From an uncultured Clostridia bacterium (GTDB lineage: Bacteria; Bacillota; SHA-98; UBA4971): DNA of 36,869 bases. The notes beneath the pieces are model-generated. The model worked only from the letters and a program-made list of their open reading frames with translations. It did not search any database and was not told the DNA's origin. Both the position numbers and the translations under genes were made by a program. The DNA lies in assembly GCA_900019985.1 (NCBI GenBank), contig FIZM01000010.1, positions 1 through 36,869 of the forward strand. The letters run 5' to 3'. This document shows positions 1-29,755 of the stretch, in pieces; position 1 is the stretch's first letter; every line of letters begins with the position of its first letter.

Positions 1-201
1 CTTCTAAGATCGATTCCCCAGATAGGCCAGAGGCGCGAACTTGTTCCTGTAGAAGGCGAGGTTCCCGACCTTACCAATCTTCCTCCTGGGTGCAGCTTTA
101 CACCGCGCTGCAAGGATGCTCACTCTGTGTGCTTCAATATTGAGCCGCCTTTTGTCACAATGAATGACGGACGCAAAGTCCGCTGCCATCTATACACCTA
201 G
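1..201 (+). CDS. Oligopeptide/dipeptide ABC transporter ATP-binding protein, C-terminal fragment (cut by window edge)
   Basis: Frame 1 is open from the first base to a TAG at 199-201 and gives 66 residues. They match the C-terminal oligo_HPY extension of DppD/DppF/OppD/OppF-type ATPases: a GEVPDLTNLPPGCSFTPRC block, then a second Cys (SVC) and a final VRCHLY. In the family this Cys-containing tail follows the ATPase domain of the cytoplasmic subunit that powers peptide (or sometimes oligosaccharide) uptake. The nucleotide-binding domain lies outside the window, so substrate and partner cannot be told. The stop codon touches the 20-bp repeat array that follows. The call rests on the conserved Pro/Gly/Cys pattern and is fairly secure at family level. 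Confidence 0.85.
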   Translation, partial: LLRSIPQIGQRRELVPVEGEVPDLTNLPPGCSFTPRCKDAHSVCFNIEPPFVTMNDGRKVRCHLYT

Positions 202-654: not shown

Positions 655-1205
655 TAAGAACGGTTATCGAAATTGAACCACCGTTTGCAGACAACGTGGA
701 CCAATTTCGGCTACTCTTTGCGGTTTTTTTGAGCAAACGCTCATAAATGGGCGATTTTGAGCCACATTTCCTTAAAAAGGTGGTTCAATTTCGACCACCC
801 TTTTGGATTTTTTCGAGCAAACGTTCATAAATGGACGATTTTGAACCACCCAAACTGCCTCAGGCGGTAGAGAATCGACCACATTTTCAGGTTGGAGCCC
901 GGTTTTGGGAGCTTTTTGAGGCTCAGGTGGTAGAATTCCTACCACGTTTTTGGAAAATGTGGCAGTTTTTCGCCCACTTTTTCAGAAAATGTGGGCGAGT
1001 TTCGACCACCAAACCGTGATGTGTAAGATTTTGGGAGGCGTGGTGGTCGATATCCTACCACCTTAACGCCTGATCATGGTAGAAAACCTTCCACCCTTGA
1101 GCCTCTTGGTGGGCGAGACTCTACCATTTTAGAGCTTACGCTCAAAACTGTGGTAGAAAAACTGCCATCAAACAGCCAAATGGTGGGCGATTCTCGACCA
1201 CAGGG
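655..1205. repeat. Dispersed palindrome-rich element, copy A
   Basis: This element is homologous to 29213-29755. Between 731 and 1150 every base aligns at a constant offset of 28,551, with roughly 85% identity by eye. It is made of many short inverted repeats with TGGT/ACCA arms about 40-60 bases apart. Examples are GGTGGT...ACCACC at 779-799, GTGGTAG-AATTC-CTACCAC at 927-945, CGCCCAC (971-977) with GTGGGCG (991-997), and GGTGGT...ACCACC at 1042-1062. A sub-unit with GAGCAAACGYTCATAAATGG is present twice (about 731 and 818). An open frame at 831-1019 is present in both copies, but nearly all differences change the amino acid, so I treat the element as non-coding. Confidence 0.85.
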
Positions 1206-1508
1206 CTGACTTACGAATAATTCCTGACTTGGAGTAAATCCTAAGAACAGGCGTGCTCTTCCAGAGCCACCTAGGGTATCTGTACACCTGGACAAAGCAG
1301 GAGATGCATCTATCCTTGCTGGGAGTTAACAGGTATGGTCTGCGCTGTCGAAGGTGCCGGAGGTGGTAAGGACCGTAGGATAGGTGGCAATGCATACCGA
1401 GGTCAAGGCATCGATTTGTATCTGCCGTAGTAGTCGGTATTATGAGATTTCCTTAGTTTGCAAAGATGTCGGGTGTCGGTATCCGTTGAGGCCAGAAAAC
1501 ATCTTGTA
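1206..1508. other. Gene-free spacer between the palindromic element and the 11-bp array
   Basis: I see no gene, RNA or clear repeat in these 300 bases apart from a possible promoter at 1416-1443. The open frames crossing it are short, have no ribosome-binding site and run into the repeats on the left. Confidence 0.5.
1416..1443 (+). promoter_or_regulatory. Possible sigma-A promoter upstream of the 11-bp array
   Basis: TTGTAT at 1416-1421 and TATTAT at 1438-1443 are separated by 16 bases, close to the sigma-A consensus. If used, it would transcribe the whole 11-bp array as a leader of nearly 900 nt before the glycosyltransferase gene at 2334. Matches of this quality also occur by chance. Confidence 0.3.
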
Positions 1509-2316
1509 GTCTATGAGCAGTCGATTGGAGGCCTATGACCGGTTCCCTACCGGTTTACCTTGAGTGTATAAGGAGTCTATCAGCAGTTCATTGCCGGCCT
1601 ACTGCCGACTGATTAGGAGCCTATTGGTATGCTATGAGTAGTCTATTAGCAGGTCGTTAACAGTCTGGCAGCAGGCCATTAGCAGGCCATTAGCAATCTG
1701 TCAGCAGTCCATTACCGGTTCGCTAGCCGCTGATTAGGAGCCTGTTAGCAATCTATTAGCAGGTCGTTAGCAATGTGTCACCAGTCTGTTGACCGTCTAC
1801 TAGAGGCTCATTAGGAGACTATCAGTAGGCTATGAGCAGTCTATCATCAGGTCGTTAGCAGTTCGTCAGCAGTCGGTTACCGGCCTGCTGGAGGACATTA
1901 GTGGCCTATGAGTAGGCTATTAGCAGTCCGATAGCAGTCTCTCAGGTTGCCGTTAGCAGTCTAACAGCGGCTTGTCACCGGTCTGCCGGCGGTTCATTAG
2001 GCGCCTATTAGTAGGGTATCAGCAGTCCGTTAGCAGTCTGTCAGCAGTCCGTTAGCGGTCTGTCAGCAGTCCGTTACCGGCCTGCTAGAGGCCACAAGAG
2101 GCCTATTGGTAGGCCATTACTGGGCGATTAGCAGTCTTTTTGCAGTCCGTTAGCCATCTGTCAGCAGTCGGTTAGCAGTTTAACAGCGGTTTGTTAGCCG
2201 TCTATTACCGGTCTGTTAGCAGCTAGCAGTCTACAGCAATCTTTGGCACTCTATTCGCAGTTAACCAGCTGGCTATTAGCAGCGTATTAGCGGGCTATTA
2301 GCGGCGTAGCGGCTCA
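1509..2316. repeat. Degenerate 11-bp tandem array, about 70 units
   Basis: From 1509 the sequence can be cut into consecutive 11-mers with consensus close to GTCTGTTAGCA (GYCYRTTAGCA). Examples in register are GTCTATGAGCA at the start and the run GTCCGTTAGCA / GTCTGTCAGCA / GTCCGTTAGCG / GTCTGTCAGCA near 2030-2070. Only a handful of 7-, 8- or 10-base units break the register. The TTAG core puts stops in the reading frames, so it is not coding. The array runs into the ribosome-binding site of the gene at 2334: its last unit ends in CATTAAAGGAGG. The unit is close to one turn of B-DNA. There are no spacers and no long units, so it is not CRISPR. Confidence 0.9.
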
Positions 2317-2333
2317 TTAAAGGAGGAGATACA

Positions 2334-3617
2334 GTGCACGTGATTATGCTTTCCTGGGAGTATCCGCCGAGGGTGGTCGGGGGAATAGCCAGGCATGTGG
2401 AGGACCTTTCGAAAGCCCTGGTTAAGCAGGGAGTGGATGTTGATGTTATCACCTGCGGCCACAGTAATGCCTGCGAAGAAGAGGATGACGAAGGGGTCCG
2501 GGTGTTCAGAGTTCCTTTTCACAATCCTTCTCCTCCTGACTTTCTCACCTGGGTCATGCAGATGAACCTGAACCTTATGGAGCGCGGGATTGAACGGGCT
2601 GCTATGGGTGCGGATCTTGTGCACGCACATGATTGGATAGTTGCCTACGCCGGGAAAGCATTGAAACATGCTTTTAACATTCCTTTAGTCGGTACAATTC
2701 ATGCCACGGAATACGGCCGGAATTGGGGCCTTCACAATGATCTGCAGCGCTACATCAGTAATGTCGAGTGGTGGCTGGGGTTCGAATCGTGGCGTGTCAT
2801 ATGCTGCAGTGAGCACATGCGCCGCGAGTTATCATGGATCTTTCAGCTTCCCGGAGATAAACTGCGCCAAATCCCCAACGGGGTAGACCCAACCAGGTTT
2901 CAAGTGCCTGAAGGCGAGGACCTTGTTGCTTTTCGTTCAAGATGGGCTGCACCTGATGAGCAGATGATCTTCTTCATAGGCAGGCTGGTGCATGAGAAAG
3001 GGGTCCATGTCCTTCTCGATGCGTTCTGCAAAGTCCTTGCTTACAGGGACAAGGTTAAACTGGTTGTCGCGGGCAAAGGCCCTGCTGATGCATATCTAAA
3101 AGAATATGCCGGCAATCTGGGCATCTACAACAGGGTTTACTTCGCAGGGTTTGTCGATGATCCAACTCGCAATAAGCTCTATAAGTGTGCAGACGTGGCC
3201 TGTGTGCCCAGCCTCTATGAACCCTTTGGCATAACTGCGCTGGAGGCCATGGCATCAGGGACTCCGGTTGTGGTTTCAGATGTAGGAGGGTTAGGAGAAG
3301 TAGTCAGACACGGGGTTACAGGCATGAAATGCTACCCCGGTAACCCCAGTTCACTTGCGGATAATATCCTAACCCTCCTTGCAGACAAGCGCTTGTGCGA
3401 CGAAATCCGTGCCAATGCAACACATGATGTTCTAACTAAGTTTAACTGGGACATAATAGCTGAATCCACGTCTCGGGTTTACGACGAAGTCCTTAAGGCA
3501 TACAGGGCAAGTCCGTGGGCGGTAACTAGGCCGAGGTGGATCTTTCAGGCGCAGGAGGCTGTCCCGCACGAGTATTCTCGCGAGTATTCCCGATACTTTG
3601 CGCACAACAGCGGCTAG
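2334..3617 (+). CDS. GT4-family glycosyltransferase, glycogen/alpha-glucan synthase-like
   Basis: This 427-residue protein has the two Rossmann domains of GT-B enzymes. The N-terminal domain has the glycine-rich acceptor loop (GGIARH, 16-21) and HAHDW (97-101). The C-terminal domain has GRLVHEKG (216-223) and the E-X7-E motif EPFGITALE with Glu296 and Glu304, which bind the nucleotide-sugar donor in retaining GT4 enzymes. The product is probably a cytoplasmic alpha-glucan made from ADP-, UDP- or GDP-glucose, inferred from two GH57 branching-type enzymes and a sugar-nucleotide enzyme next door. The start is GTG at 2334 behind AAAGGAGGAG (2319-2328), which directly abuts the 11-bp array. The C-terminus carries a small EYSREYSRYF duplication. 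Another GT4 role, such as capsule or sucrose-type synthesis, cannot be excluded. Confidence 0.85.
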   Translation: MHVIMLSWEYPPRVVGGIARHVEDLSKALVKQGVDVDVITCGHSNACEEEDDEGVRVFRVPFHNPSPPDFLTWVMQMNLNLMERGIERAAMGADLVHAHDWIVAYAGKALKHAFNIPLVGTIHATEYGRNWGLHNDLQRYISNVEWWLGFESWRVICCSEHMRRELSWIFQLPGDKLRQIPNGVDPTRFQVPEGEDLVAFRSRWAAPDEQMIFFIGRLVHEKGVHVLLDAFCKVLAYRDKVKLVVAGKGPADAYLKEYAGNLGIYNRVYFAGFVDDPTRNKLYKCADVACVPSLYEPFGITALEAMASGTPVVVSDVGGLGEVVRHGVTGMKCYPGNPSSLADNILTLLADKRLCDEIRANATHDVLTKFNWDIIAESTSRVYDEVLKAYRASPWAVTRPRWIFQAQEAVPHEYSREYSRYFAHNSG

Positions 3618-3690: not shown

Positions 3691-6171
3691 TTGAAGGCGG
3701 TAGTGATGGCAGGCGGAAAAGGGACAAGGCTTAGACCTCTTACATGTGACAGGCCGAAGCCCATGGTGCCGGTGGTGAACCGCCCCATGCTGGAGCATGT
3801 CATTGACCTTCTGAAACTTCACGGGTTCTGCGATATCCTCGCCACACTTTACTACATGCCGGAAGTAATCATGGACTACTTCGGCCAAGGAGAAAGATTC
3901 GGAGTCTCCATGGATTACGCTGTTGAAGATACACCCCTTGGCACAGCAGGAAGTGTCAAAGCATGTGAACACCTGCTGGATTCAACCTTCCTCGTGATCT
4001 CAGGAGATGCGCTGACAGATATCAACTTAACTGAAGCTGTGGAGTTTCACAAAGCTAAAGGGGCAATCGCCACAATCGTCCTGACTCGCGTTACAAGCCC
4101 GCTGGAATACGGGGTCGTAATCACCGACGATGACGGCCGCATTACAAGGTTCCTTGAGAAGCCCAGTTGGAGCGAGGTATTCAGCGATACGGTGAATACC
4201 GGCATCTATGTGCTGGAACCGGATGTGTTGCGTCTCTTTGACCCGGGCGTTGAGTTTGACTTCAGCAAGAACCTGTTTCCGCTTATTCTAAAGAAAGGCC
4301 TGCCTCTCTTTGGATATGTAGCCCAGGGCTACTGGAGTGATGTGGGTAATATCGACCAGTACCGCCAGGCCCATTATGATATCCTCCAAGGATTAGTACG
4401 CGTCAGAATTCCGGGAGAAGAAATCGCAAAAGGCATCTACATAGGAAGAGGCACTGAAATCCATCCAAGCGCAAAGCTTGATGCCCCTGTTATAATCGGA
4501 GATTTCTGCCGTATCAGGCGAGGTGTGGAGATCGGCTCAAGCACGGTCATCGGACACAATAATATCCTAAACGACGGTGCTTCCGCAAAACGCAGCGTGC
4601 TCTGGGATGACTCCTTCTTCGGGAAGGACACTGAACTAAGGGGGGCTATCGTCTGCAGCAAAGTAAGCCTCAAGGCAAAGACAGCGGTATTTGAAGGATC
4701 TATCATTGGGTCTCGCTCTGTAGTAGGCGGCAGCTCCGTTATCAAGCCCGGCGTAAAGATATGGCCTGAAAAGGTTATTGACGCAGGCACAACCATTACC
4801 ACAAGCTTGGTGTGGGGGGCTAAATGGTCCAAGCGGTTGTTCGGGACGTATGGAGTCTCAGGCCTTGTCAACGTGGAGCTTACTCCCGAAATCGCAGCCA
4901 AATTAGGGGCAGCTTACAGCTCATGCTTCAAAGAGAGGCGTCAGGTGGTTATAAGCTCAGATGCGTACAAGCCTTCCCGGATGATAAAGCGGGCACTGAC
5001 ATCAGGCCTTCTCTCAGGCGGTGCAGCTGTCTACGATGTTGGCCGTACCACCACACCTGTGACTCGGTACGCCGTTACAGCCCTGGGAGTTGCAGGGGGC
5101 CTGCACGTGCGGCTTTCTCCCTATGACCCGGATATCGCCTTAATCGAATTCCTTGACGATAAAGGCATGAATATCGATAAAGCCACTGAACGAAGAATCG
5201 AGAATGCCTTCTTCAGCGAGGACTTTACCAGGGTAAGCCCGGACGATATCGGGGAAGTGGCTTTTCTAACCCGCCTTATGGAAGAGTACTTAGACTGTCT
5301 CCTCGAGACCATCTCCGTAGATGTGATAAGAGAGAAGCAGTTTAAAGTCGTTGTAGATTACGACCCCGGCAACCTCTCTTTGCTCCTGCCGTCTTTCCTT
5401 TCTGCGCTGGGTTGCACTGTATCTACGTCAGACAGGGAAAGCAATGCAGAACAAGGGCCAAGACACCTCCTGGATATGCTGGATTCTCTATCGTTTCTTG
5501 CAAAGTCCGTCGTTGTTCAGCAGGCGGATCTCGGAATAATCGTTGACAGCAATGCAGAAAGGCTTCTCCTGGTTGATGAAAAAGGCAACAGGGTGTCTGA
5601 GGACCTGTTCACAGCCTTAATGTCCCTTCTTGTCCTGAAATCCAGGGAAGGCGCTACTGTGGCAGTGCCTGTTACAGCTTCGCGAATTATCGAGGAAATG
5701 GCCAGAAGATACCGGGGACGCGTAGTCCGCACCCGAGCCAATCCCAGGTCAGTTATGGAGAAGGCTATTGAAGAAAAGATCTTCATAGGAGAAAAAGGCC
5801 TCCCGGGATTTCAGGCGCCTTTTGACGCCCTCTTTTCTCTTGGAAAGATCCTGGAGACCATGGCACGGGACAGCATCAGGCTTTCAGAATTGGTTTCCAT
5901 GGTTCCTGAATTTTATATCAGCAAGCGCAGCGTGGAATGTCCCTGGGAAGCTAAAGGCAAGGTAATGAGGACTCTCATTAATGAGACCCGCACCAAGCAA
6001 GTGGAGCTTATAGACGGTATTAAGGTTTACCACGAAAAAGGCTGGGCATTGGTTCTGCCTGATTCGGAAGAGCCGCTCTTCCACATCTACAGTGAGGCTT
6101 CCAGTCCGGACGAGGCAGAAGCGCTGCGAGAAGCTTACATGAACCGTATTATGGAGATCGGGACGATCTAA
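3691..6171 (+). CDS. Sugar-phosphate nucleotidyltransferase / phosphohexomutase fusion
   Basis: This 826-residue protein has three parts. Residues 1-235 are a nucleotidyltransferase domain with GGKGTRLRPLT (8-18), GDALTD (105-110) and WSDVGN (215-220). Residues 245-375 are a left-handed beta-helix of hexapeptide repeats. Residues from about 385 are a phosphomannomutase/phosphoglucomutase-like region. Such fusions are annotated as mannose-1-phosphate guanylyltransferase or glucose-1-phosphate nucleotidyltransferase. The mutase part lacks the usual TASHNP phosphoserine loop and has HVRLSPYDPD (472-481), so mutase activity is doubtful although Ser476 is close by. The start is TTG at 3691 with AAAAGGAGG 9 bases upstream. 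It lies 73 bases after the GT4 gene, so it is probably co-transcribed and supplies the nucleotide sugar. Confidence 0.85.
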   Translation: MKAVVMAGGKGTRLRPLTCDRPKPMVPVVNRPMLEHVIDLLKLHGFCDILATLYYMPEVIMDYFGQGERFGVSMDYAVEDTPLGTAGSVKACEHLLDSTFLVISGDALTDINLTEAVEFHKAKGAIATIVLTRVTSPLEYGVVITDDDGRITRFLEKPSWSEVFSDTVNTGIYVLEPDVLRLFDPGVEFDFSKNLFPLILKKGLPLFGYVAQGYWSDVGNIDQYRQAHYDILQGLVRVRIPGEEIAKGIYIGRGTEIHPSAKLDAPVIIGDFCRIRRGVEIGSSTVIGHNNILNDGASAKRSVLWDDSFFGKDTELRGAIVCSKVSLKAKTAVFEGSIIGSRSVVGGSSVIKPGVKIWPEKVIDAGTTITTSLVWGAKWSKRLFGTYGVSGLVNVELTPEIAAKLGAAYSSCFKERRQVVISSDAYKPSRMIKRALTSGLLSGGAAVYDVGRTTTPVTRYAVTALGVAGGLHVRLSPYDPDIALIEFLDDKGMNIDKATERRIENAFFSEDFTRVSPDDIGEVAFLTRLMEEYLDCLLETISVDVIREKQFKVVVDYDPGNLSLLLPSFLSALGCTVSTSDRESNAEQGPRHLLDMLDSLSFLAKSVVVQQADLGIIVDSNAERLLLVDEKGNRVSEDLFTALMSLLVLKSREGATVAVPVTASRIIEEMARRYRGRVVRTRANPRSVMEKAIEEKIFIGEKGLPGFQAPFDALFSLGKILETMARDSIRLSELVSMVPEFYISKRSVECPWEAKGKVMRTLINETRTKQVELIDGIKVYHEKGWALVLPDSEEPLFHIYSEASSPDEAEALREAYMNRIMEIGTI

Positions 6172-6242: not shown

Positions 6243-6352
6243 GTGCTCAAGTCTTGGCATAGACATAGATCGATTACAGTGCTTAAAGCCCTTGTATAGA
6301 CATCGAGCGCTCACAGTGCTTAAGCTTTAGCATAGACACTGTAGTCTATCTC
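6243..6352. repeat. Tandem 36-37-bp repeats grown from the 3' end of the GH57 gene
   Basis: Three units begin with GTGCTYAAG or a close variant at 6243, 6279 and 6316 (36, 37 and about 37 bases). All contain a TATAGACA/CATAGACA core. The third unit covers the last codons and stop of the minus-strand GH57 gene ending at 6320 (Val-Tyr-Ala-Lys-Ala-stop). The other two repeat that gene end further downstream in its own transcript direction. They fill most of the gap between two convergent genes. I see no classical terminator in this gap. Confidence 0.75.
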
Positions 6353-7912
6353 AGGAAAGATGTTGTTTCTGTATTCCATCTCCGAAAGCCAGCCTTCGTC
6401 AATGGAATCCCGCCGGATATCTTCATAGAGCTTTGTAAAGCGCCACAGGTGCTCTTTGGTGCGCCTTACCGCATACGGGACCACAGTCCCTGTCTTCATG
6501 ATGAAAGCCCAATCGCTGCTCTGAGCAAGCAGCAGCTCCCTGGCTGCCTGGTTTAAGGCGCGCCTCCTCAGGCCGTCTGTTGAAGGATAGGCTTTGGCCA
6601 GCTCCACCATTCTTTCAGCTGCTTTATGAAGGTGAGGATAGATCCAGTCGTTGGAACCTTCCAGCCAGACCTCATTATAGCCCTTATACCCCCAGCTGGA
6701 CAAGGACGGTGTCGATACCTGGTTGCGCTTATATATGTCCAAGTAATCTCCTGGCGTAATCAACTTGAATATATTCTGGTCATAGGTGACTTTTCGTATC
6801 AGGTAATCGAGCCACTCAGGCCCTTCAAACCACCAGTGCCCGAAGAGCTCTGCGTCGTACGGTGCGACCACGATTGGCTTTCTGTCCATTACAGATGCGA
6901 GATACTCAATCTGCCTTTCTCTGTTGAACATAAAGTTCCCGGCATGGATCGCGGCTTTTCTCAGTGCGCGTTCCCTGTCGTAAGGCTGTTTGTCATGGGT
7001 CTTTCCGGTGATCCTGTAATACTTTATTCCTGTGCTGATCCGAGCTCCGCTCGAGTGGATATACGGTTTTATGTATTCGTAGTCCAGATCATATCCGATG
7101 TCCCGGTAAAACTCCCTGTAATCATAGTCTCCCGGATATCCTTCCCGTGCGCTCCAAACCTGCTTCGATGATTCCATATCCCTGCCGAAGGCAGCCACTC
7201 CGGACCTGCAGTATACAGGTGCAAACACCCCGTACTTTGGCTGAGGGGACGCGAACAGCACTCCGTGAGAGTCCAGTATGAAATACCTTATGCCTTCCTG
7301 TTTCAAGTGCTCATCATCACCGGGGTTAAAGCCGCATTCAGGAAGCCAGAAACCGGGCGAATCACGGTTAAAGCGCTTTCTGTAGTAGTCAACTGCTATC
7401 TTTATCTGAGCACGCACTGCTTCGCGGCATATTTCCATAAGAGGAAGATAGCCGTGGGTTGCACACGAAGTGATAAGCTCCAGGCAACCCCTGTCCTGTA
7501 GTTCAGCAAATGCGGTCACCAGGTTGCATTGATATTCATCTAAGAATACACGCCTGGCTTCGCGGAATTTCTCCAGGTACATAACGGCATTCTTATGAAA
7601 CTCCGGGAGCCAGCGGGTGCGTTCGATTTCCTTTTCTGCAAGCTCAATAAGGCGTTCTATATGGCGAAGGTACCGCTCCTGTAGAAGGCTGTCCTGGAGC
7701 ATACATGCTAGCGGCGGAGTAAGAGACATTGTTATTCGATATCTTATCCCTTCGTCAGCCAGGCGCTTAAAGACCTTTATAAGCGGAATGTACGTCTCTG
7801 TAATGGCTTCATAAAGCCAGGTCTCCTCAAAAAAATCCGGATGCTCCGGGTGTCTTATAAACGGCAAGTGGGCGTGAAGGACAATAGCAAGGTAACCTTT
7901 TTCGCATCCCAT
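6320..7912 (-). CDS. GH57 1,4-alpha-glucan branching enzyme-type protein
   Basis: This 530-residue GH57 glycoside hydrolase has the N-terminal HAHLPF motif (13-18) and the nucleophile motif WLPECGF with Glu192. It also has the second catalytic motif PYDAELFGHWW with Asp353 and a helical C-terminal region containing SSDWAF. This is the pattern of GH57 branching enzymes, which cut alpha-1,4 chains and re-attach them as alpha-1,6 branches. It would act on the cytoplasmic glucan made by the GT4 enzyme. The ATG at 7912 has AAGGAGA about 12 bases upstream, a rather long spacing. It follows the DUF4912 gene by 72 bases on the same strand and is likely one operon with it. Its 3' end is part of the 36-37-bp repeat array. 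A GH57 4-alpha-glucanotransferase is the main alternative. Confidence 0.88.
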   Translation of the reverse strand: MGCEKGYLAIVLHAHLPFIRHPEHPDFFEETWLYEAITETYIPLIKVFKRLADEGIRYRITMSLTPPLACMLQDSLLQERYLRHIERLIELAEKEIERTRWLPEFHKNAVMYLEKFREARRVFLDEYQCNLVTAFAELQDRGCLELITSCATHGYLPLMEICREAVRAQIKIAVDYYRKRFNRDSPGFWLPECGFNPGDDEHLKQEGIRYFILDSHGVLFASPQPKYGVFAPVYCRSGVAAFGRDMESSKQVWSAREGYPGDYDYREFYRDIGYDLDYEYIKPYIHSSGARISTGIKYYRITGKTHDKQPYDRERALRKAAIHAGNFMFNRERQIEYLASVMDRKPIVVAPYDAELFGHWWFEGPEWLDYLIRKVTYDQNIFKLITPGDYLDIYKRNQVSTPSLSSWGYKGYNEVWLEGSNDWIYPHLHKAAERMVELAKAYPSTDGLRRRALNQAARELLLAQSSDWAFIMKTGTVVPYAVRRTKEHLWRFTKLYEDIRRDSIDEGWLSEMEYRNNIFPEIDYSVYAKA

Positions 7913-8944: not shown

Positions 8945-9097
8945 TCAGGTTACCTCCCCACTGAATTGTGTGGACATTTCTAAGCGGACACCTCTGTAAT
9001 AATATCTCTACTGCTGTGCAGGTTTATACCATCGGAATACTGTCTGGGCTTATGACTTACACTAAATATGTTCCATTCTGGAAAGGAGGACAAAAAA
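8945..9097. promoter_or_regulatory. Divergent promoter region between the two alpha-glucan operons
   Basis: These 153 bases separate the start of the DUF4912-GH57 operon (minus) from the second GH57 gene (plus), so promoters for both must lie here. I could not find a -35/-10 pair good enough to place either one. The two ribosome-binding sites are clear: GGGGAGGT read on the minus strand, and AAAGGAGG at about 9082-9089. Confidence 0.5.
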
Positions 9098-10744
9098 ATG
9101 TCAATCGGGTCGCTTGTACTCGTTCTCCACAGCCACCTGCCGTACTGTAGAAAGGCAGGGGTATGGCCTTTCGGTGAGGAGTGGGTTTTTGAGGCTATGG
9201 CGGAAACGTACATACCGCTTTTGGATATTATCAATTCTCTGGCTGACACTGACGCCTTTGGCAGTTTTACAATAGGATTTACACCTGTGCTGCTCGATCA
9301 ATTGCAAGATCCGTATATGCTCCTCCGGTTCGACGAGTACTTAGACGCTAAGATCGCTGCAGCAGAGGCTGACATTGCACGATTCAAGGCTGAGAGGGAA
9401 TGGAGCTTTCAAGAGCTGGCCAAGTTCTACAGGGAACGGTATGAAAAAGTAAAGAGCAGTTTTCATCTTCGGTACGACAGAGACCTGGTGAGTGCATTTC
9501 GGGCACTTCAAGACAGGGGATTGGTTCAGATCGTGGCCGGAGCGGCTACCCATGCATACTTGCCGCTTCTCTCCACTGAGAACTCTGTCTATTCCCAGCT
9601 AAAACTCGGGCGTGATGTATATACAGAGAGCTTCGGGCGTCCTCCGGAAGGGATTTGGCTGCCTGAATGCGGGTATCGCCCGCCGTCAGAGACGACCAGT
9701 GTTGATAGGGTGCTCAAGGATTTAGGATATACTTACTTTTTTGTTGATGCCCATGCAATCGAAGGCGGGGCTCCGATAAGCGTGTACTCAGATAGATCGC
9801 TGAGAAAGCCTGAGGTGAAACCTGCTATCCGAAAACGAACACAAGATTATACCTCGTATCTTCCGTACCTGCTTTCAGGAAGCGGAATCGCAGTCCTCGG
9901 GAGAAACCAGCGTACCGCCTTGCAAGTATGGTCTTCAGAATGGGGCTACCCAGGTGACGGGAACTACCGGGAATTCCACAGGCGTGATCCTGTTTCCGGT
10001 TTCGGTTACTGGAAAGTTACCAGTCGATTAGTGGATCTCTCTGCTAAGGAAGTATATGATCCCGATGCCGCTCTTCGGCGAGCAAAGGAGCATGCAGATC
10101 ACTTTGCCGGCTTAGTGGAACGGCTTCTCTTGGATTTCAACAGAGAAACCGGGAATCAGGGGGTTATTGTAGCTCCCTTCGATATGGAGCTTTTCGGCCA
10201 TTGGTGGCTGGAAGGCCTTGATTGGCTAAGGTGGACATTGGAAAGCCTCGGTAAGAGCCCCCATGTAGAGGTCTTGTCTGCTTCAAGTTGCCTGAAAAAA
10301 CACGTGCCGCATCAGGAGATCGATTTGTTTGAAAGCTCATGGGGCTTAGGTGGGGGCCACTATATCTGGGACAATGATTTGACCGGCTGGATGTGGCAGG
10401 AGATTCACAATGTAGAAAAGGAGATTTGCAGCGCTGCATCGCAAATAAGCAGTAGGCACGGGCAAGAGCAGGACACCGATGACGCGGCTTTGAGAAACAG
10501 GCTCTTGAAGCAGGCTGCCCGTGAGGCCATGCTCCTTCAAAGCAGTGATTGGCCTTTCCTTGTCACCACTCGACAAGCAAGAGACTACGGAGAGCGGAGA
10601 TTCCTCGAACACAGGCACAGATTCGAACGATTGGCCCATGCATTGTCCAAGGATGTGATATCGCCTGACATCATTGACTACTTAGAGCAAGTCGAGTCTA
10701 TTGATGCCGTGTTCCCCGACATTGATTTTACCCTGTTCATGTAG
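9098..10744 (+). CDS. Second GH57 branching enzyme-type protein
   Basis: This 548-residue GH57 protein is a distant paralogue of the one at 6320-7912. It has HSHLPY (11-16), WLPECGYRP with nucleophile Glu190, APFDMELFGHWW with Asp362, and a C-terminal SSDWPF in the helical domain, so both catalytic carboxylates are present. I start it at the ATG at 9098 because AAAGGAGG sits 8 bases upstream; an upstream in-frame ATG at 9068 has no such site. It probably acts on the same cytoplasmic alpha-glucan. Two GH57 enzymes might split work, one branching and one transferring or trimming (inference). Confidence 0.88.
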   Translation: MSIGSLVLVLHSHLPYCRKAGVWPFGEEWVFEAMAETYIPLLDIINSLADTDAFGSFTIGFTPVLLDQLQDPYMLLRFDEYLDAKIAAAEADIARFKAEREWSFQELAKFYRERYEKVKSSFHLRYDRDLVSAFRALQDRGLVQIVAGAATHAYLPLLSTENSVYSQLKLGRDVYTESFGRPPEGIWLPECGYRPPSETTSVDRVLKDLGYTYFFVDAHAIEGGAPISVYSDRSLRKPEVKPAIRKRTQDYTSYLPYLLSGSGIAVLGRNQRTALQVWSSEWGYPGDGNYREFHRRDPVSGFGYWKVTSRLVDLSAKEVYDPDAALRRAKEHADHFAGLVERLLLDFNRETGNQGVIVAPFDMELFGHWWLEGLDWLRWTLESLGKSPHVEVLSASSCLKKHVPHQEIDLFESSWGLGGGHYIWDNDLTGWMWQEIHNVEKEICSAASQISSRHGQEQDTDDAALRNRLLKQAAREAMLLQSSDWPFLVTTRQARDYGERRFLEHRHRFERLAHALSKDVISPDIIDYLEQVESIDAVFPDIDFTLFM

Positions 10745-13847: not shown

Positions 13848-14630
13848 ATGAAAGTAATTATTGCCGATGACTATGAGATTATGAGTAGAGAGGCGGCTAA
13901 GGTTGTAGCTGCCGAAATAGAAAAGAACCCTGACTGTGTCCTTGCACTGCCTACAGGCGGAACCCCCCTCGGCTTTTACGCGGAACTGGTCAGGATGCAT
14001 AAAGAGGAAGGCTTGGATTTTTCCCGTGTCACTACATTCAATCTCGATGAGTACCTGGGGCTTCCTGAAACTCACAAATCCAGCTATGCCTTTTACATGT
14101 ATGACAACTTCTTCAATGATGTTAACGTAAACCGAGATAGGGTACATATTCCTCGTGGGCTTGCAGAGGATCCTCACGAGGAAGCAGCCGCGTACGAACG
14201 CGAGATCAAGAAGGCAGGCGGGATTGACCTGGCTGTACTCGGTATAGGGCGTAACGGGCATATCGGTTTTAATGAGCCGAAGACGGAATTCGGTTCGCTT
14301 ACTCGTCCGATCTACCTTGCAAAAAGGACTATTGAAGCTAACGCAAGGTTTTTTGATGATGATCCTGACGCTGTGCCGCGGCAAGCGATTTCCATGGGAA
14401 TCAAGACGATAATGAATTCACGCAAGATTATTCTACTTGCCAACGGCCCTGAGAAGTCCGGTGCCATCTATCAGACTATACATGGGCCTGTAACAGATAT
14501 GGTTCCCAGTTCAGTCCTGCAGCTTCACCCGGATTGCACCGTTTTCTTGGATAGGGATGCTGCATCCGAGCTAAAGCCGCCATCTGATGATGTTGTCCAG
14601 GGACCCGGCATAATGAGTATGGTATACTGA
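13848..14630 (+). CDS. nagB: Glucosamine-6-phosphate deaminase
   Basis: This 260-residue protein converts GlcN-6-P to fructose-6-P and ammonia, feeding amino sugars into glycolysis. Motifs: LPTGGTPLGFY for phosphate binding, FNLDEYLGL with the catalytic Asp, and LGIGRNGHIGFNEP with the active-site His. ATG at 13848 follows AGGAGGCGAC. It is 57 bases after nagA and completes the kinase-deacetylase-deaminase route. The next gene, 85 bases on, is rapZ. Confidence 0.95.
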   Translation: MKVIIADDYEIMSREAAKVVAAEIEKNPDCVLALPTGGTPLGFYAELVRMHKEEGLDFSRVTTFNLDEYLGLPETHKSSYAFYMYDNFFNDVNVNRDRVHIPRGLAEDPHEEAAAYEREIKKAGGIDLAVLGIGRNGHIGFNEPKTEFGSLTRPIYLAKRTIEANARFFDDDPDAVPRQAISMGIKTIMNSRKIILLANGPEKSGAIYQTIHGPVTDMVPSSVLQLHPDCTVFLDRDAASELKPPSDDVVQGPGIMSMVY

Positions 14631-14715
14631 AAGTGTTAAACTACACTGTTCGACCGGGACTCGTGTTGTCGATTGTGACCGACTGAATGCCGGCAACAGG
14701 CGGAGGGATCTGGCT

Positions 14716-15597
14716 TTGCATGAAGGGCGATTCATAATAATCACAGGGCTTTCAGGTGCAGGCAAGAGTGAGGCTGTGCGTGCACTTGAAGATCTCGGTT
14801 TCTTTTGTGTTGATAATCTTCCGCCTACACTGATCCCGAAATTTGCTGAACTCGCGTCACAATCCGAAGGCAAGATTGATAGAATAGCCTTAGTGGTGGA
14901 TATAAGGAGCCGCGAGTTCTTCGATAAGCTGTTTTATGTGCTAGATGACCTCGAGGAAATGGGAGTCAATTACGAGATTCTGTTCCTTGAGGCGTCTGAT
15001 GAAGCTCTTGTACGGAGGTTTAAAGAGACCAGGAGACGTCATCCTCTTTCCGCAGAAGGCGGTATTGTTGAGGGTCTCAGCGAAGAGCGCAGAAAGCTTG
15101 AACAGGTCCGCGAGAAAGCTTCTCGCATCATAGATACATCAAATATTACCCCTAAACAACTTCGCGAGCGAATCGCATCCAGTTTTTCCCAAAAGAGTCC
15201 CAGCAAGGGAATTGACGTGATCATAGTGTCCTTTGGATTCAAGCATGGAATACCTATGGATGCGGATCTTGTTTTTGATGTAAGGTTTCTGCCGAATCCC
15301 CATTATGTGGACGCTTTGCGCCCGCTTACGGGAGAATCTGATGCAGTCAGAGACTATGTGTTCCGTTCCAAGGTGACGAAGTCCTTCCTTGATAAGCTGT
15401 TTGAACTTATGGGGTTTCTCTTGCCACAATACACGAAGGAGGGGAAGACTCAACTCATAATCGGGATAGGATGCACCGGAGGGAGGCACCGTTCTGTTGC
15501 GATTGCAAATCGCCTGGCTGGTTTCTTGAAGGAACAAGGATACAATGTCACAGTGGAACACAGGGATAAAGACATCCCGGAGAGACTGGCTGAGTAG
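14716..15597 (+). CDS. rapZ: RapZ/YvcJ nucleotide-binding protein
   Basis: The 293-residue protein has Walker A GLSGAGKS (11-18), DIRSREF around 62-68, and the C-terminal GCTGGRHRSV (252-261) characteristic of RapZ. In E. coli RapZ senses GlcN-6-P and guides small-RNA control of glmS; in B. subtilis YvcJ is a GTP/ATP-binding protein of less clear role. TTG at 14716 is chosen because CGGAGGGA lies 7 bases before it. The gene follows nagB directly, which is of interest given the GlcN-6-P sensing known for E. coli RapZ. gckA (yvcK) follows 13 bases later. Confidence 0.95.
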   Translation: MHEGRFIIITGLSGAGKSEAVRALEDLGFFCVDNLPPTLIPKFAELASQSEGKIDRIALVVDIRSREFFDKLFYVLDDLEEMGVNYEILFLEASDEALVRRFKETRRRHPLSAEGGIVEGLSEERRKLEQVREKASRIIDTSNITPKQLRERIASSFSQKSPSKGIDVIIVSFGFKHGIPMDADLVFDVRFLPNPHYVDALRPLTGESDAVRDYVFRSKVTKSFLDKLFELMGFLLPQYTKEGKTQLIIGIGCTGGRHRSVAIANRLAGFLKEQGYNVTVEHRDKDIPERLAE

Positions 15598-15610
15598 GAG
15601 AGTCACTATA

Positions 15611-16870
15611 ATGAAGTCTGTTAGGAAGCTTTATCCTCACCTTGACTTGAAGAAATGGTCTTTGGTGTTTGCAGTTGGAGTAGGACTGACAATAGCAGGC
15701 ATCATATCTCTTTCATACAGATGGATGCCTGGCCTTGTCATGGGGCTCGTAGGCGTTGTCATGACTGTCTTTTCCGCCGTGGTGGTGGTTAGACTAGTCA
15801 TCAAAGCCCTTACACCGGATTACGGTGAAAATGTTGTAGAGGTCCTCCACAAGAGGTATGAGCTTGTGCTTGGCCCTAAGATAGTCGTTGTAGGCGGTGG
15901 CACCGGTTTATCTACACTGCTTAGAGGATTAAAGGAGTTCACGGGAAATCTGACAGCCATAGTCACAGTGGCTGATGACGGAGGGAGTTCAGGGAGACTC
16001 AGAAAGGAAATGGGAGTGCTTCCCCCGGGCGATATCCGTAACTGCCTTGTGGCGCTTGCTGATTCCGAGCCTCTTATGGCTCGTCTTTTTGAATATAGGT
16101 TCCCTGAAGGCAACTCCTCAGGGCTGGGAGGGCATAACTTCGGGAACCTGTTTATCGCAACAATGTCTGCGATTACCGGCGATTTTGAAGAGGCGGTGAA
16201 GGAATCCAGCAGGGTGTTAGCGGTAAGAGGCCGGGTGCTTCCCTCAACTCTAGACGATGTGGTCCTTGTCGCCCATTGTCAAGGGGGAAATGTGGTATAT
16301 GGTGAATCGACTATTGGGAAGTGCGGGGTGCGCATAGAGAAGGTATCCCTCCTGCCGGAGAATGCAAAGGCGCTTCCTGAGGCTCTTGAAAGCATTGCTG
16401 ATGCAGATGCCATTGTGCTGGGTCCGGGGAGCCTGTTTACCAGTGTAATTCCTAATCTGCTTGTGGAAGGGATTAAAGAAGCGATCCTGAAGAGCAATGC
16501 ACCCAGGATATACGTGTGTAATGTAATGACCCAGCCCGGAGAAACCGACGGATTTACTGCCGCAGACCATGTGGAGGCTATTATAGATCACGCAGGGAAC
16601 GGATTCATCGACTATGTTGTGGTAAACCGAAGCCGTGTTCCACCGAAGCTGGCTGAGAAGTACAGCGTTGAAGGCGCGTATCCGGTCAAAGTTGACAGAG
16701 ACAGGCTAAGGCGGTTTGGAATCAGGATCGTAGAAGAAGACTTAATGTCTACCGCAAACTACGCCAGACACGATTCTATGCGCGTTGCTGAAACGTTGCT
16801 CCGTATTATTTCAGAGGACGAGAAATCGCAGAAAAAGAGGGCGATTTGGATCAGTCAAAAGTCAAGATAA
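15611..16870 (+). CDS. yvcK: GckA/YvcK-family protein with N-terminal membrane anchor
   Basis: This 419-residue protein has two predicted membrane helices (about 17-35 and 40-64). They precede a CofD-like domain with VVVGGGTGL (92-100), ADDGGSSGRLR (121-131) and LPPGDIRNCL. YvcK proteins bind UDP-sugars and are needed for growth on gluconeogenic carbon and for cell shape in B. subtilis. The B. subtilis protein is soluble; membrane-anchored forms occur in some Clostridia. ATG at 15611 has TAGGAGAG 8 bases upstream. The reading frame extends upstream to a GTG inside rapZ, but that has no ribosome site. The 3' end overlaps convergent spmB by 20 bases. Confidence 0.92.
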   Translation: MKSVRKLYPHLDLKKWSLVFAVGVGLTIAGIISLSYRWMPGLVMGLVGVVMTVFSAVVVVRLVIKALTPDYGENVVEVLHKRYELVLGPKIVVVGGGTGLSTLLRGLKEFTGNLTAIVTVADDGGSSGRLRKEMGVLPPGDIRNCLVALADSEPLMARLFEYRFPEGNSSGLGGHNFGNLFIATMSAITGDFEEAVKESSRVLAVRGRVLPSTLDDVVLVAHCQGGNVVYGESTIGKCGVRIEKVSLLPENAKALPEALESIADADAIVLGPGSLFTSVIPNLLVEGIKEAILKSNAPRIYVCNVMTQPGETDGFTAADHVEAIIDHAGNGFIDYVVVNRSRVPPKLAEKYSVEGAYPVKVDRDRLRRFGIRIVEEDLMSTANYARHDSMRVAETLLRIISEDEKSQKKRAIWISQKSR

Positions 16871-17393
16871 GACGCCATATTGCCACTGAAGAGAGAAACG
16901 CGGCGAAATCTGCAATTAAGCCTGCTGCCAGCGAATGCCTGGTTTTCCTTATTCCGACTGCGCCAAAGTAAACTGTAATGATGTAAATCGTAGTCTCAGA
17001 GCTTGCTTGCATTGTAGAGGCAATTCTGCCGATTAGGGAATCCGGCCCGAATTTCCGGACAAGATCCACTGTGACTTCCAATGCGCCTGTTCCGGACAAA
17101 GGCCGTATCAGCGCCAGAGGTAGCAGTTCTGAAGGCATGCCTATCGTTTGTGTCAGTGGGGAGAGAATCCGCGTCAGTAAAGCTAAAGCGCCGGATTCTC
17201 GAAAGATCCCTATTGCCACAAACATACCTACCAGAAAAGGGACTAACCTTATTGCAATGGCAAACCCGTCCTTTGCGCCTTCTATGAATGTCTCGTATAC
17301 CCTGACCTTCTTCGCGTATCCTGCAATGCAGATAACTGCAATCATAAGGGGAACGACAAGATTTGAGAGAGCGGCAACAGCCTTAAGCAGCAT
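16851..17393 (-). CDS. spmB: Spore maturation protein B
   Basis: This 180-residue membrane protein of the nucleoside-recognition (Gate) family has about four to five hydrophobic segments and the motif RPLSGTGALE. It matches SpmB in length and context. SpmA and SpmB act in late spore core dehydration in Bacillus and Clostridium. It lies downstream of spmA on the same strand with a 28-base gap. ATG at 17393. Its 3' end overlaps the end of yvcK, a convergent arrangement that could give antisense interference between a sporulation and a vegetative transcript (inference). Confidence 0.92.
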   Translation of the reverse strand: MLLKAVAALSNLVVPLMIAVICIAGYAKKVRVYETFIEGAKDGFAIAIRLVPFLVGMFVAIGIFRESGALALLTRILSPLTQTIGMPSELLPLALIRPLSGTGALEVTVDLVRKFGPDSLIGRIASTMQASSETTIYIITVYFGAVGIRKTRHSLAAGLIADFAAFLSSVAIWRLILTFD

Positions 17394-17421
17394 AATCTCT
17401 CTCTCCTTTGATTGATGATCC

Positions 17422-17997
17422 TCAAGTTATATCCCTGAAAAACCTGTCGGCAAGTAATGCAACTGAGGTGGCAAGGATGTTCATGAGGACAATAGGTATG
17501 ACGACTTCTGCCGGATTCAGAGAACGGTAGTGTGTTCGAATGGCAATCACCGTCGTAGGAATGAGGGTGATTCCTGCAGTTGATATTGCCACAAAGGTGC
17601 ACATTGCATCGCTGGCCGCATCTCTTCCCTCATTGAGGGATGCCAGCTCTTCCATGGCTTTTATGCCCAAAGGGGTCGCAGCGTTCCCCATACCGAGGAG
17701 ATTCGCAACCAGGCTCATGGTGATGGCACAAAGGGCGGGATGATCGTCAGGTACTGAAGGGAACAGCCACCTTGCCAAAGGCGCAAAGAACCTGGCAAGA
17801 GTCCGAGTGAGGCCTGCGGATTCTGCGATCCGCATAAGGCCGCTCCAAAGAGTCATGATCCCGATAAACCCGAGACATATGTTTACTGCCTGGTTTGCAC
17901 CTTCAATAATGCCTCTTGTTACTTGAGCGGATGTGCCGCTCAGGATCCCCGTAACAACACCAAGGACGATCAATGCCAGCCAAATGCTGTTTACCAT
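17422..17997 (-). CDS. spmA: Spore maturation protein A
   Basis: This 191-residue polytopic membrane protein has the SpmA features LFPSVPDDHPA, SLVANLLGMGNAATPLG and TTVIAIRTHYRS. It pairs with SpmB and indicates an endospore-forming host. I place the start at the ATG at 17997 (MVNSIW...), which has GGAGG 9 bases upstream and matches the usual N-terminus; an in-frame ATG at 18006 would have its ribosome site abutting it. Upstream on the minus strand, AATATA (18091-18086) and TGTACAAG (18067-18060) faintly resemble a sigma-E promoter, but I would not rely on it. Confidence 0.92.
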   Translation of the reverse strand: MVNSIWLALIVLGVVTGILSGTSAQVTRGIIEGANQAVNICLGFIGIMTLWSGLMRIAESAGLTRTLARFFAPLARWLFPSVPDDHPALCAITMSLVANLLGMGNAATPLGIKAMEELASLNEGRDAASDAMCTFVAISTAGITLIPTTVIAIRTHYRSLNPAEVVIPIVLMNILATSVALLADRFFRDIT

Positions 17998-18006
17998 TTT
18001 AGACAT

Positions 18007-18166
18007 CCTCCATTAAGCGAGATAGCCTAGCTGATTCGTAGGTATCCAACCAGCAAAGCCTTGTACAGGCTGCATCGTACATACCTATATTCCGAAGGCG
18101 AGGCAGATTATGACTATATAAGAGATCCGTTGCCGTGTGATAGAATTAGCTTAGGTGGTGCCAGGA
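18007..18166. promoter_or_regulatory. Divergent promoter region, spmA / whiA
   Basis: About 160 bases lie between the divergent starts of spmA and whiA, so both promoters must be here unless whiA is read from further away. No strong sigma-A pair is visible. The whiA ribosome site AGGTGG (18153-18158) is clear. Confidence 0.45.
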
Positions 18167-19102
18167 ATGTTCTATACAGAGACAAAAGGCGAGCTTGCAC
18201 GCACGATGCCTGAAAGCAAATGTTGTAAGCTCTCAGAGTTTTCGGCAATTGCCAGGAGTCTGGGCAGGTTGGAGATGCCGGTTTTTGAAATCCGAACTGA
18301 AAACGCTGCATCTGCCCGGAAGATAATGTCTTTTGTCAACGTTATCTTCGGTTTCAAACCAAGAATGAGACTTATCCATGGAAAAGGTGGACGCTCAAGG
18401 AATCAGCATATCATCCAACTGCTGCTTGGTAAGAAGACCCTGGAGACACTGAAAGGGCTTGGCGTGATGTCTGAGAGCGGTTCCGGCATTTCTATGGAAA
18501 ACGGTATCCCGTGGCACCTTCTATCCAGGCAGTGTTGCCGGAGAGCCTACCTTCGAGGGGTTTTTCTCGGAAGGGGATATGTGCAAAACCCTGAAAAAGA
18601 GTACCATATGGAGTTTATGACAGATAGCTCAGAGCATGCAAAAGGAATAGTGCAGCTAGCAGAATCCTTTAACGTAACGCCTAAGGTCGCGCCACGCAAG
18701 AAGGGGTACATGGTCTATGTCAAGGGAGGGGACGATGTAGCTCAGCTGCTTCGTGTTATGGGAGCCCACTCCGCAGTGCTTACGCTGGAAAGTGTGAGGG
18801 TGCTGAGGGGTGTGCGCGGCGATGTGAACCGAGTTGTAAACTGCGAGACCGCAAATGTCACAAAGGCAGTGAATGCAGGTCTTTCCCAGATAGATGCCAT
18901 ACAGAGAATTGAGCGGATCATTGGGCTAAAGTCCCTTGCTCCGGGACTTCAGGAGATAGCGGAACTCAGGTTAGCCAATCCTGAGATGACCCTCAGGGAA
19001 CTGGGTCAGTTGTTATCTCCCCCGATCAGTAAATCTGCTGTAAATCACAGGATGAGGAGGCTTATCCATATAGCAAACAGCTTAAACGGTAAAATGGGAT
19101 AG
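18167..19102 (+). CDS. whiA: WhiA-family DNA-binding protein
   Basis: This 311-residue protein begins with FYTETKGELARTMP and CCKLSEF, as WhiA does. It continues into a LAGLIDADG-homing-endonuclease-like domain (GVFLGRGYVQNPEKEYHMEF) and ends in a helix-turn-helix region (TLRELGQLLSPPISKSAVNHRMRRL in parts, with SAVNHR near the end). WhiA controls sporulation septation in actinomycetes and cell division/chromosome segregation in Bacillus. I choose the ATG at 18167, with AGGTGG 8 bases upstream, rather than the tandem GTGs at 18155. In most Firmicutes whiA directly follows yvcK; here spmBA lies between them in reverse. Confidence 0.93.
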   Translation: MFYTETKGELARTMPESKCCKLSEFSAIARSLGRLEMPVFEIRTENAASARKIMSFVNVIFGFKPRMRLIHGKGGRSRNQHIIQLLLGKKTLETLKGLGVMSESGSGISMENGIPWHLLSRQCCRRAYLRGVFLGRGYVQNPEKEYHMEFMTDSSEHAKGIVQLAESFNVTPKVAPRKKGYMVYVKGGDDVAQLLRVMGAHSAVLTLESVRVLRGVRGDVNRVVNCETANVTKAVNAGLSQIDAIQRIERIIGLKSLAPGLQEIAELRLANPEMTLRELGQLLSPPISKSAVNHRMRRLIHIANSLNGKMG

Positions 19103-29212: not shown

Positions 29213-29755
29213 GTGTGGTCGGTTTCCGGCCACATTTTACCAATTAGATGGTTGACCGAGGCCACCCTTAATGGTTTTTTTGAGCAAACGCTCATAAGTG
29301 GTCGGTTTTCAACCACCTTTCCTTAGAGAAGTGGTTCAATCTCGACCACCCTTTCGGATTTTTCCGAGCAAATGTTCATAAATGGGCGATTCTGAACCAC
29401 CCAAAGCGCCTCAGGTGGTAGAGAATCGACCACATTTTCAGGTTGCAACCCGGTTTTTGGAGCTTTTTGGGGCTCAGGTGGTAGATTCTCTACCACTTTT
29501 TTTAAAAACGTGGCAGTTTTTCGCCCACTTTTTCAGAAAATGTGGGCGAGTTTCGACTACCAAACCGCGATTTTCCACCTTGTGGGAGGCGCGGTGGTCG
29601 ATATTCTACCACCTGGACGCCTGATCGTGGTAGAAAACCTTCCACCTTTAGGCCTCCTTGTGGGCGAGAATCTACCATTTTAGAGCGTACGCCCAAAACT
29701 GTGGTAGAAAACCTTCCACAGAAAAGCCTTACGGTGGTAGGAATTCGACCATACA
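29213..29755. repeat. Dispersed palindrome-rich element, copy B
   Basis: This is the partner of the element at 655-1205, in the same orientation, and has the same series of TGGT/ACCA inverted repeats. Several arms are intact while the loop between them differs: GTGGTAGATTCTCTACCAC here against GTGGTAGAATTCCTACCAC in copy A. Copy B starts directly after the hppA-derived 30-bp array. An open frame at 29382-29624 parallels the one in copy A, but its changes are nearly all non-synonymous. Confidence 0.85.
29214..29238 (+). terminator. Probable intrinsic terminator of hppA
   Basis: TGTGGTCGG (29214-29222) pairs with CCGGCCACA (29226-29234) in RNA, with one G-U pair and a UUU loop; UUUU follows. 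It is the first hairpin of palindromic element copy B, so the element seems to supply the terminator, about 170 bases after the hppA stop. Confidence 0.5.

Follow-up and report, generated by a model that had tools for sequence, protein, structure and literature searches.

A degenerate 11-bp tandem array in the leader of a glycosyltransferase operon, best read as an old and species-private minisatellite

The GT4 locus

The window analyzed here is a stretch of 36,869 nucleotides from an uncultured Clostridia bacterium (assembly GCA_900019985.1, contig FIZM01000010.1). Near its start, an ABC transporter gene and a GT4-type glycosyltransferase gene enclose a long intergenic region with the following features.

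1 to 201, plus strand: 3'-terminal part of a gene for the ATP-binding protein of an oligopeptide/dipeptide ABC transporter (oligo_HPY), which is the neighbor on this side in all congeners
185 to 286, no strand: 20-bp tandem array of 5 units, separate, in the same intergenic region as the 11-bp array
290 to 609, no strand: degenerate 12-bp array of ~27 units, likewise separate and in the same region
700 to 1206, plus strand: one copy of a dispersed, palindrome-rich intergenic element of ~490 bp
1215 to 1247, plus strand: conserved promoter-like element, GAATAATT-N14-AATCMTAAGAA; the 11-bp array lies between it and the GT4 gene
1264 to 1505, no strand: leader stretch from the conserved element to the array, with no detectable periodicity
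1296 to 1304, plus strand: AGGAGAT-containing stretch, possibly a relic ribosome-binding site (weak; by-eye alignment)
1506 to 2319, no strand: degenerate 11-bp tandem array of ~74 units, consensus TTAGCAGTCT(A/G), with weak higher-order blocks (9/18 units)
2321 to 2326, plus strand: Shine-Dalgarno sequence AGGAGG of the GT4 gene, conserved in congeners
2334 to 3617, plus strand: GT4-type glycosyltransferase gene (Glyco_transf_4 and Glycos_transf_1), the first gene after the array

The GT4 gene starts with a GTG codon at 2334. Near it lie a nucleotidyltransferase/phosphomutase fusion at 3691-6171 and two GH57/branching-enzyme-type genes at 6320-7912 and 9068-10744, and together these genes form a glucan-metabolism cluster. 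The element at 1215-1247 is, to judge from its position, probably a promoter of unassigned sigma class.

Extent and inner structure of the 11-bp array

By cyclic-profile alignment, the array measures 814 bp, or 74.0 units, and occupies window positions 1506-2319. The initial annotation had placed it within 3 bp of these boundaries (1509-2316) and counted about 70 copies of GTCTGTTAGCA, which is a rotation of the unit found here. Self-identity at lag 11 reaches 0.538 over 1501-2330, compared with 0.252 (sd 0.017) in resampled sequence, where the maximum at any of 70 lags was 0.324 (500 resamplings), and harmonics at lags 22, 33, 44, 55, and 66 all lie between 0.43 and 0.53. The head-to-tail repetition that had been proposed from the letters alone is thus real and clearly above chance. 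In the same alignment the units differ from the consensus by 239 substitutions (29%), with transitions twice as frequent as transversions, and the register breaks only six times in 814 bp, four of these falling within the final ~100 bp. The high divergence of the copies explains why Tandem Repeats Finder recovers the array only piecemeal, as fragments. As first described, the array runs into the Shine-Dalgarno sequence of the GT4 gene, ending 1 bp before it at 2319. No long open frame was found on either strand of the leader, where the longest stop-free run is 62 codons; the array is therefore non-coding, again as annotated, and its interpretation as coding sequence was rejected.

Identity between units is nearly flat with distance (0.56 for neighbors, 0.54 overall), with a peak of 0.62 at 18 units apart (permutation P = 0.0035 over 30 lags) and raised values at 9 and 11 units. 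Two 10-base units, 18 units apart and inside matching blocks, carry the same 1-bp deletion. An old array that had duplicated in blocks would show this pattern. In addition, there are 40 substitutions per register break, within the range of 8 to 52 seen in the other arrays; the 11-bp register is therefore not specially kept, and we rejected the idea of its special maintenance.

The locus across the genus

All seven species of the genus share the ABC transporter gene upstream and the GT4 gene downstream, and each of their genomes has a single copy of the promoter-like element, placed upstream of GT4. A weaker version of this element is found in the sister genus too. At the other end of the leader, window positions 2320-2400 are 89 to 93% identical to five congeners. 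The distance from the promoter-like element to the GT4 start is 1119 bp here versus 91, 91, 91, 108, 354, and 427 bp in the congeners, the last of these spanning an assembly gap, and the total intergenic length is 2132 bp versus 155 to 1215 bp. Since three congeners have only 91 bp where this genome has 1119 bp, the array grew inside the leader. An AGGAGAT motif ~51 bp past the promoter-like element, near the Shine-Dalgarno position of the congeners, may be a faint relic of the ancestral ribosome-binding site.

No homologue of the 11-bp array was detected among 40 other genomes (one per species), including all six congeners. The initial annotation had named homologous loci without an array as a finding that would count against its readings; such loci are what the relatives carry, and they count against a function. 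Two of the genomes have periodic sequence of their own at this locus: G005 contains an unrelated 21-bp array in the same GT4 leader, and in G006 the final 300 bp ahead of GT4 have a 40-bp periodicity, most of it upstream of the promoter-like element.

Functional readings of the array

A protein or an RNA that recognizes the unit could make the array a cis-regulatory leader or binding platform of the GT4 operon. Its location, with a conserved promoter-like element on one side and the Shine-Dalgarno sequence on the other, is consistent with such a role, as is the single-strand fold, which is stronger than that of dinucleotide shuffles (z = -5.9). However, column-permuted arrays fold equally well (z = -0.56; 34 of 120 at least as strong), so the excess comes from being a repeat. 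The array thus displays no structure beyond that of comparable repeats; no Rfam family matches up to E = 1, and nothing like it is conserved in relatives. A selected RNA structure was rejected on the column and unit permutations together with the absence of an Rfam match. A sigma-70 scan found no promoters inside the array.

DNA makes one turn per 10.5 bp, so that an 11-bp spacing precesses by ~17 degrees per unit; at most a few successive units share a face, and no single face is kept over 74 units. This arithmetic, together with the equal frequency of other periods in this genome, led us to reject the platform of identical helical faces suggested at first. Bent DNA, a further suggestion, was likewise rejected, as the 814 bp contain a single A-tract instead of a series phased at ~10.5 bp. 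Furthermore, every congener lacks the array although operon and promoter-like element are conserved, the unit forms no other array in the genome, and arrays of other units are common outside leaders. We therefore consider regulation through the array improbable. Of the interpretations initially offered, slippage without function is the only one that fits, while binding or bending along one helical face and a regulatory repeated leader both failed.

Comparison with a plasmid centromere

In plasmid R1, the centromere parC consists of ten 11-bp direct repeats bound by ParR (PMC9426499). The array resembles it in having an 11-bp direct-repeat unit and in lying directly upstream of an operon, but it has 74 decayed units instead of ten, and no par genes adjoin it: its flanks are the ABC transporter gene and the GT4 gene. 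The downstream gene is a glycosyltransferase in a sugar-metabolism operon, and the contig carries ordinary chromosomal genes, e.g., those for an H+-pyrophosphatase and tmRNA. A genome-wide search for ParM gave no match here, and none in the control genomes either. No similar array was found in 72,556 plasmids or 50,697 phages. Given the gene context and this absence from both sets, we rejected a parC-like centromere, which has next to no probability in our assessment. The phage result also led us to reject a viral origin of the array.

Other arrays in the genome

In a sample of about 750 kb of the 1.83-Mb genome, we observe 39 to 42 degenerate intergenic arrays, depending on window and threshold, with unrelated units and periods of about 10 to 40 bp. 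Among 100-bp windows, 3.9% of the intergenic and 0.09% of the coding ones are periodic, a split that is approximate because genes were called by a simple home-made caller; the resampled null gives 0.05% of windows, counted in 120-bp windows at a slightly different threshold. Among relatives (congeners G001, G004, and G005, and G007 from the sister genus), all with smaller samples, 0.3 to 1.1% of intergenic windows are periodic. This Firmicute species thus stands out for an unusually high number of degenerate arrays in its intergenic DNA.

Of these arrays, 19 sit in co-directional, 7 in convergent, and 2 in divergent gaps, with 11 more beside contig ends; leaders are not their main location. 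As the gap types are mixed and other periods are common, there is nothing special about a period of 11 bp or about a position in a leader. Two other arrays that were compared across species are private to this species as well. The 11-bp unit forms no second array in the genome, and its two near-matches (contigs C52 and C64) are isolated single sites, so the search of host genome and relatives proposed in the initial annotation ended with a unit private to this locus.

Two further arrays have 11-bp units of unrelated sequence, L070:6811-6923 with CAAGAATGGCA and L077:189-333 with GGGCTAATGTG; a copy of the dispersed ~490-bp element lies only ~12 bp away from the second. In L051 (contig C6), positions 14241-18930 hold five unrelated tandem arrays (21, 14, 24, 16, and 15 bp) in less than 5 kb.

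A minisatellite in an operon leader

Bacterial minisatellites and VNTR loci, such as the MIRU loci of Mycobacterium tuberculosis, are non-coding, intergenic tandem repeats with locus-specific units of ~10 to 100 bp, built by slippage or recombination. The array at the GT4 locus shares these properties: its copies stand head to tail, it is intergenic and non-coding, and its unit is specific to one lineage and one locus. It is far more diverged (29%) than such loci and probably old, and each species is represented here by one genome. We thus regard it as very probably a degenerate minisatellite without dedicated function, best read as old, private to this species, and placed in the GT4 leader by happenstance.

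In the history we propose, a short stretch of the leader, between the promoter-like element and the Shine-Dalgarno sequence, would have been duplicated by replication slippage and then enlarged as whole blocks of 9 and 18 units were duplicated, afterwards decaying by substitution to its present divergence. It would have been tolerated because both flanking elements stayed intact. We infer that slippage or unequal recombination made the array and that the product is neutral; the longer mRNA leader could still change GT4 expression as a by-product.

Three observations sit less easily with a minisatellite. The array has the most copies in the sample (74; the next has ~27), it sits exactly between a conserved element and the Shine-Dalgarno sequence, and conservation differs among the 11 positions of its unit, though block amplification of variants explains this unevenness too. 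If the minisatellite reading is right, a striking array can be filler private to one lineage even where it stands precisely between promoter-like sequence and ribosome-binding site.

Intergenic enrichment of 6- to 11-bp tandem repeats is already described for some prokaryotes, namely, Methanococcus voltae, M. aeolicus, and Natrialba magadii (PMC4060949). As in those genomes, long-unit repeats are over-represented here in intergenic and not in coding DNA. That survey, however, counted exact repeats, whereas the arrays reported here are degenerate, have periods of about 10 to 40 bp, and belong to an uncultured Firmicute genus.

A dispersed palindrome-rich element beside the arrays

The element at 700-1206 is non-coding and intergenic. 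Roughly a dozen copies in this genome, either nearly complete or covering much of its length, match it at 82 to 91% identity. Among them are a second copy in the window (29260-29737) and copies at L051:18158-18661, L057:9365-9854, L083:703-1184, and L111:7670-8150. In seven aligned copies, the 3' boundary of the element is sharp, and the sequence contains a succession of imperfect GTGG...CCAC palindromes, several of them ~32 bp apart.

The association of arrays with this element is the most interesting lead of our analysis. An array lies within 400 bp at 8 of 12 element loci, in some cases touching the element, and 8 of 11 gaps with an element contain an array versus 27 of 181 without (Fisher P = 6e-5; 3e-4 when only gaps holding 400 bp or more of other sequence are counted). 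Viewed from the arrays, 12 of 42 are at most 400 bp from an element versus 6.7% expected (P = 1.4e-5, arrays counted as independent). These figures concern 11 to 12 loci, several of them near contig ends, and a 400-bp cut-off that was picked after the data were seen.

Hairpins formed by the palindromes might stall replication and provoke slippage nearby, which would make the 11-bp array a by-product of the copy at 700-1206. Yet ~300 bp, including the promoter-like element, separate the start of the array from that copy; G005 has an array in its leader but no copy of the element at the locus; about 30 of the 42 arrays are not near any copy; and arrays and element copies may both merely accumulate where intergenic DNA is tolerated. 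For the 11-bp array we consider this origin unlikely. Slightly better chances, though still slim, attach to the broader proposal that a genus-specific palindromic element seeds arrays of unrelated units beside it and inflates intergenic DNA by a previously undescribed, element-linked slippage, with the 11-bp array as the largest product seen. If true, this would provide a testable route for the growth of bacterial intergenic DNA.

With a copy from G006 as the query, the element gave 35 matches in G006, 29 in G004, and 7 in G003, and none was found in G001. Identity between species is ~70%. The G006 copy that lies at the GT4 locus has, outside itself, its best-scoring match in the orthologous copy of G004 (85% over 439 bp), with two other copies as similar over shorter lengths (86 to 87%). 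The same G006 copy is only 68% identical to the copy in the present genome, in which copies are 82 to 91% alike, suggesting either that copies are homogenized within each genome or that each lineage had a separate burst.
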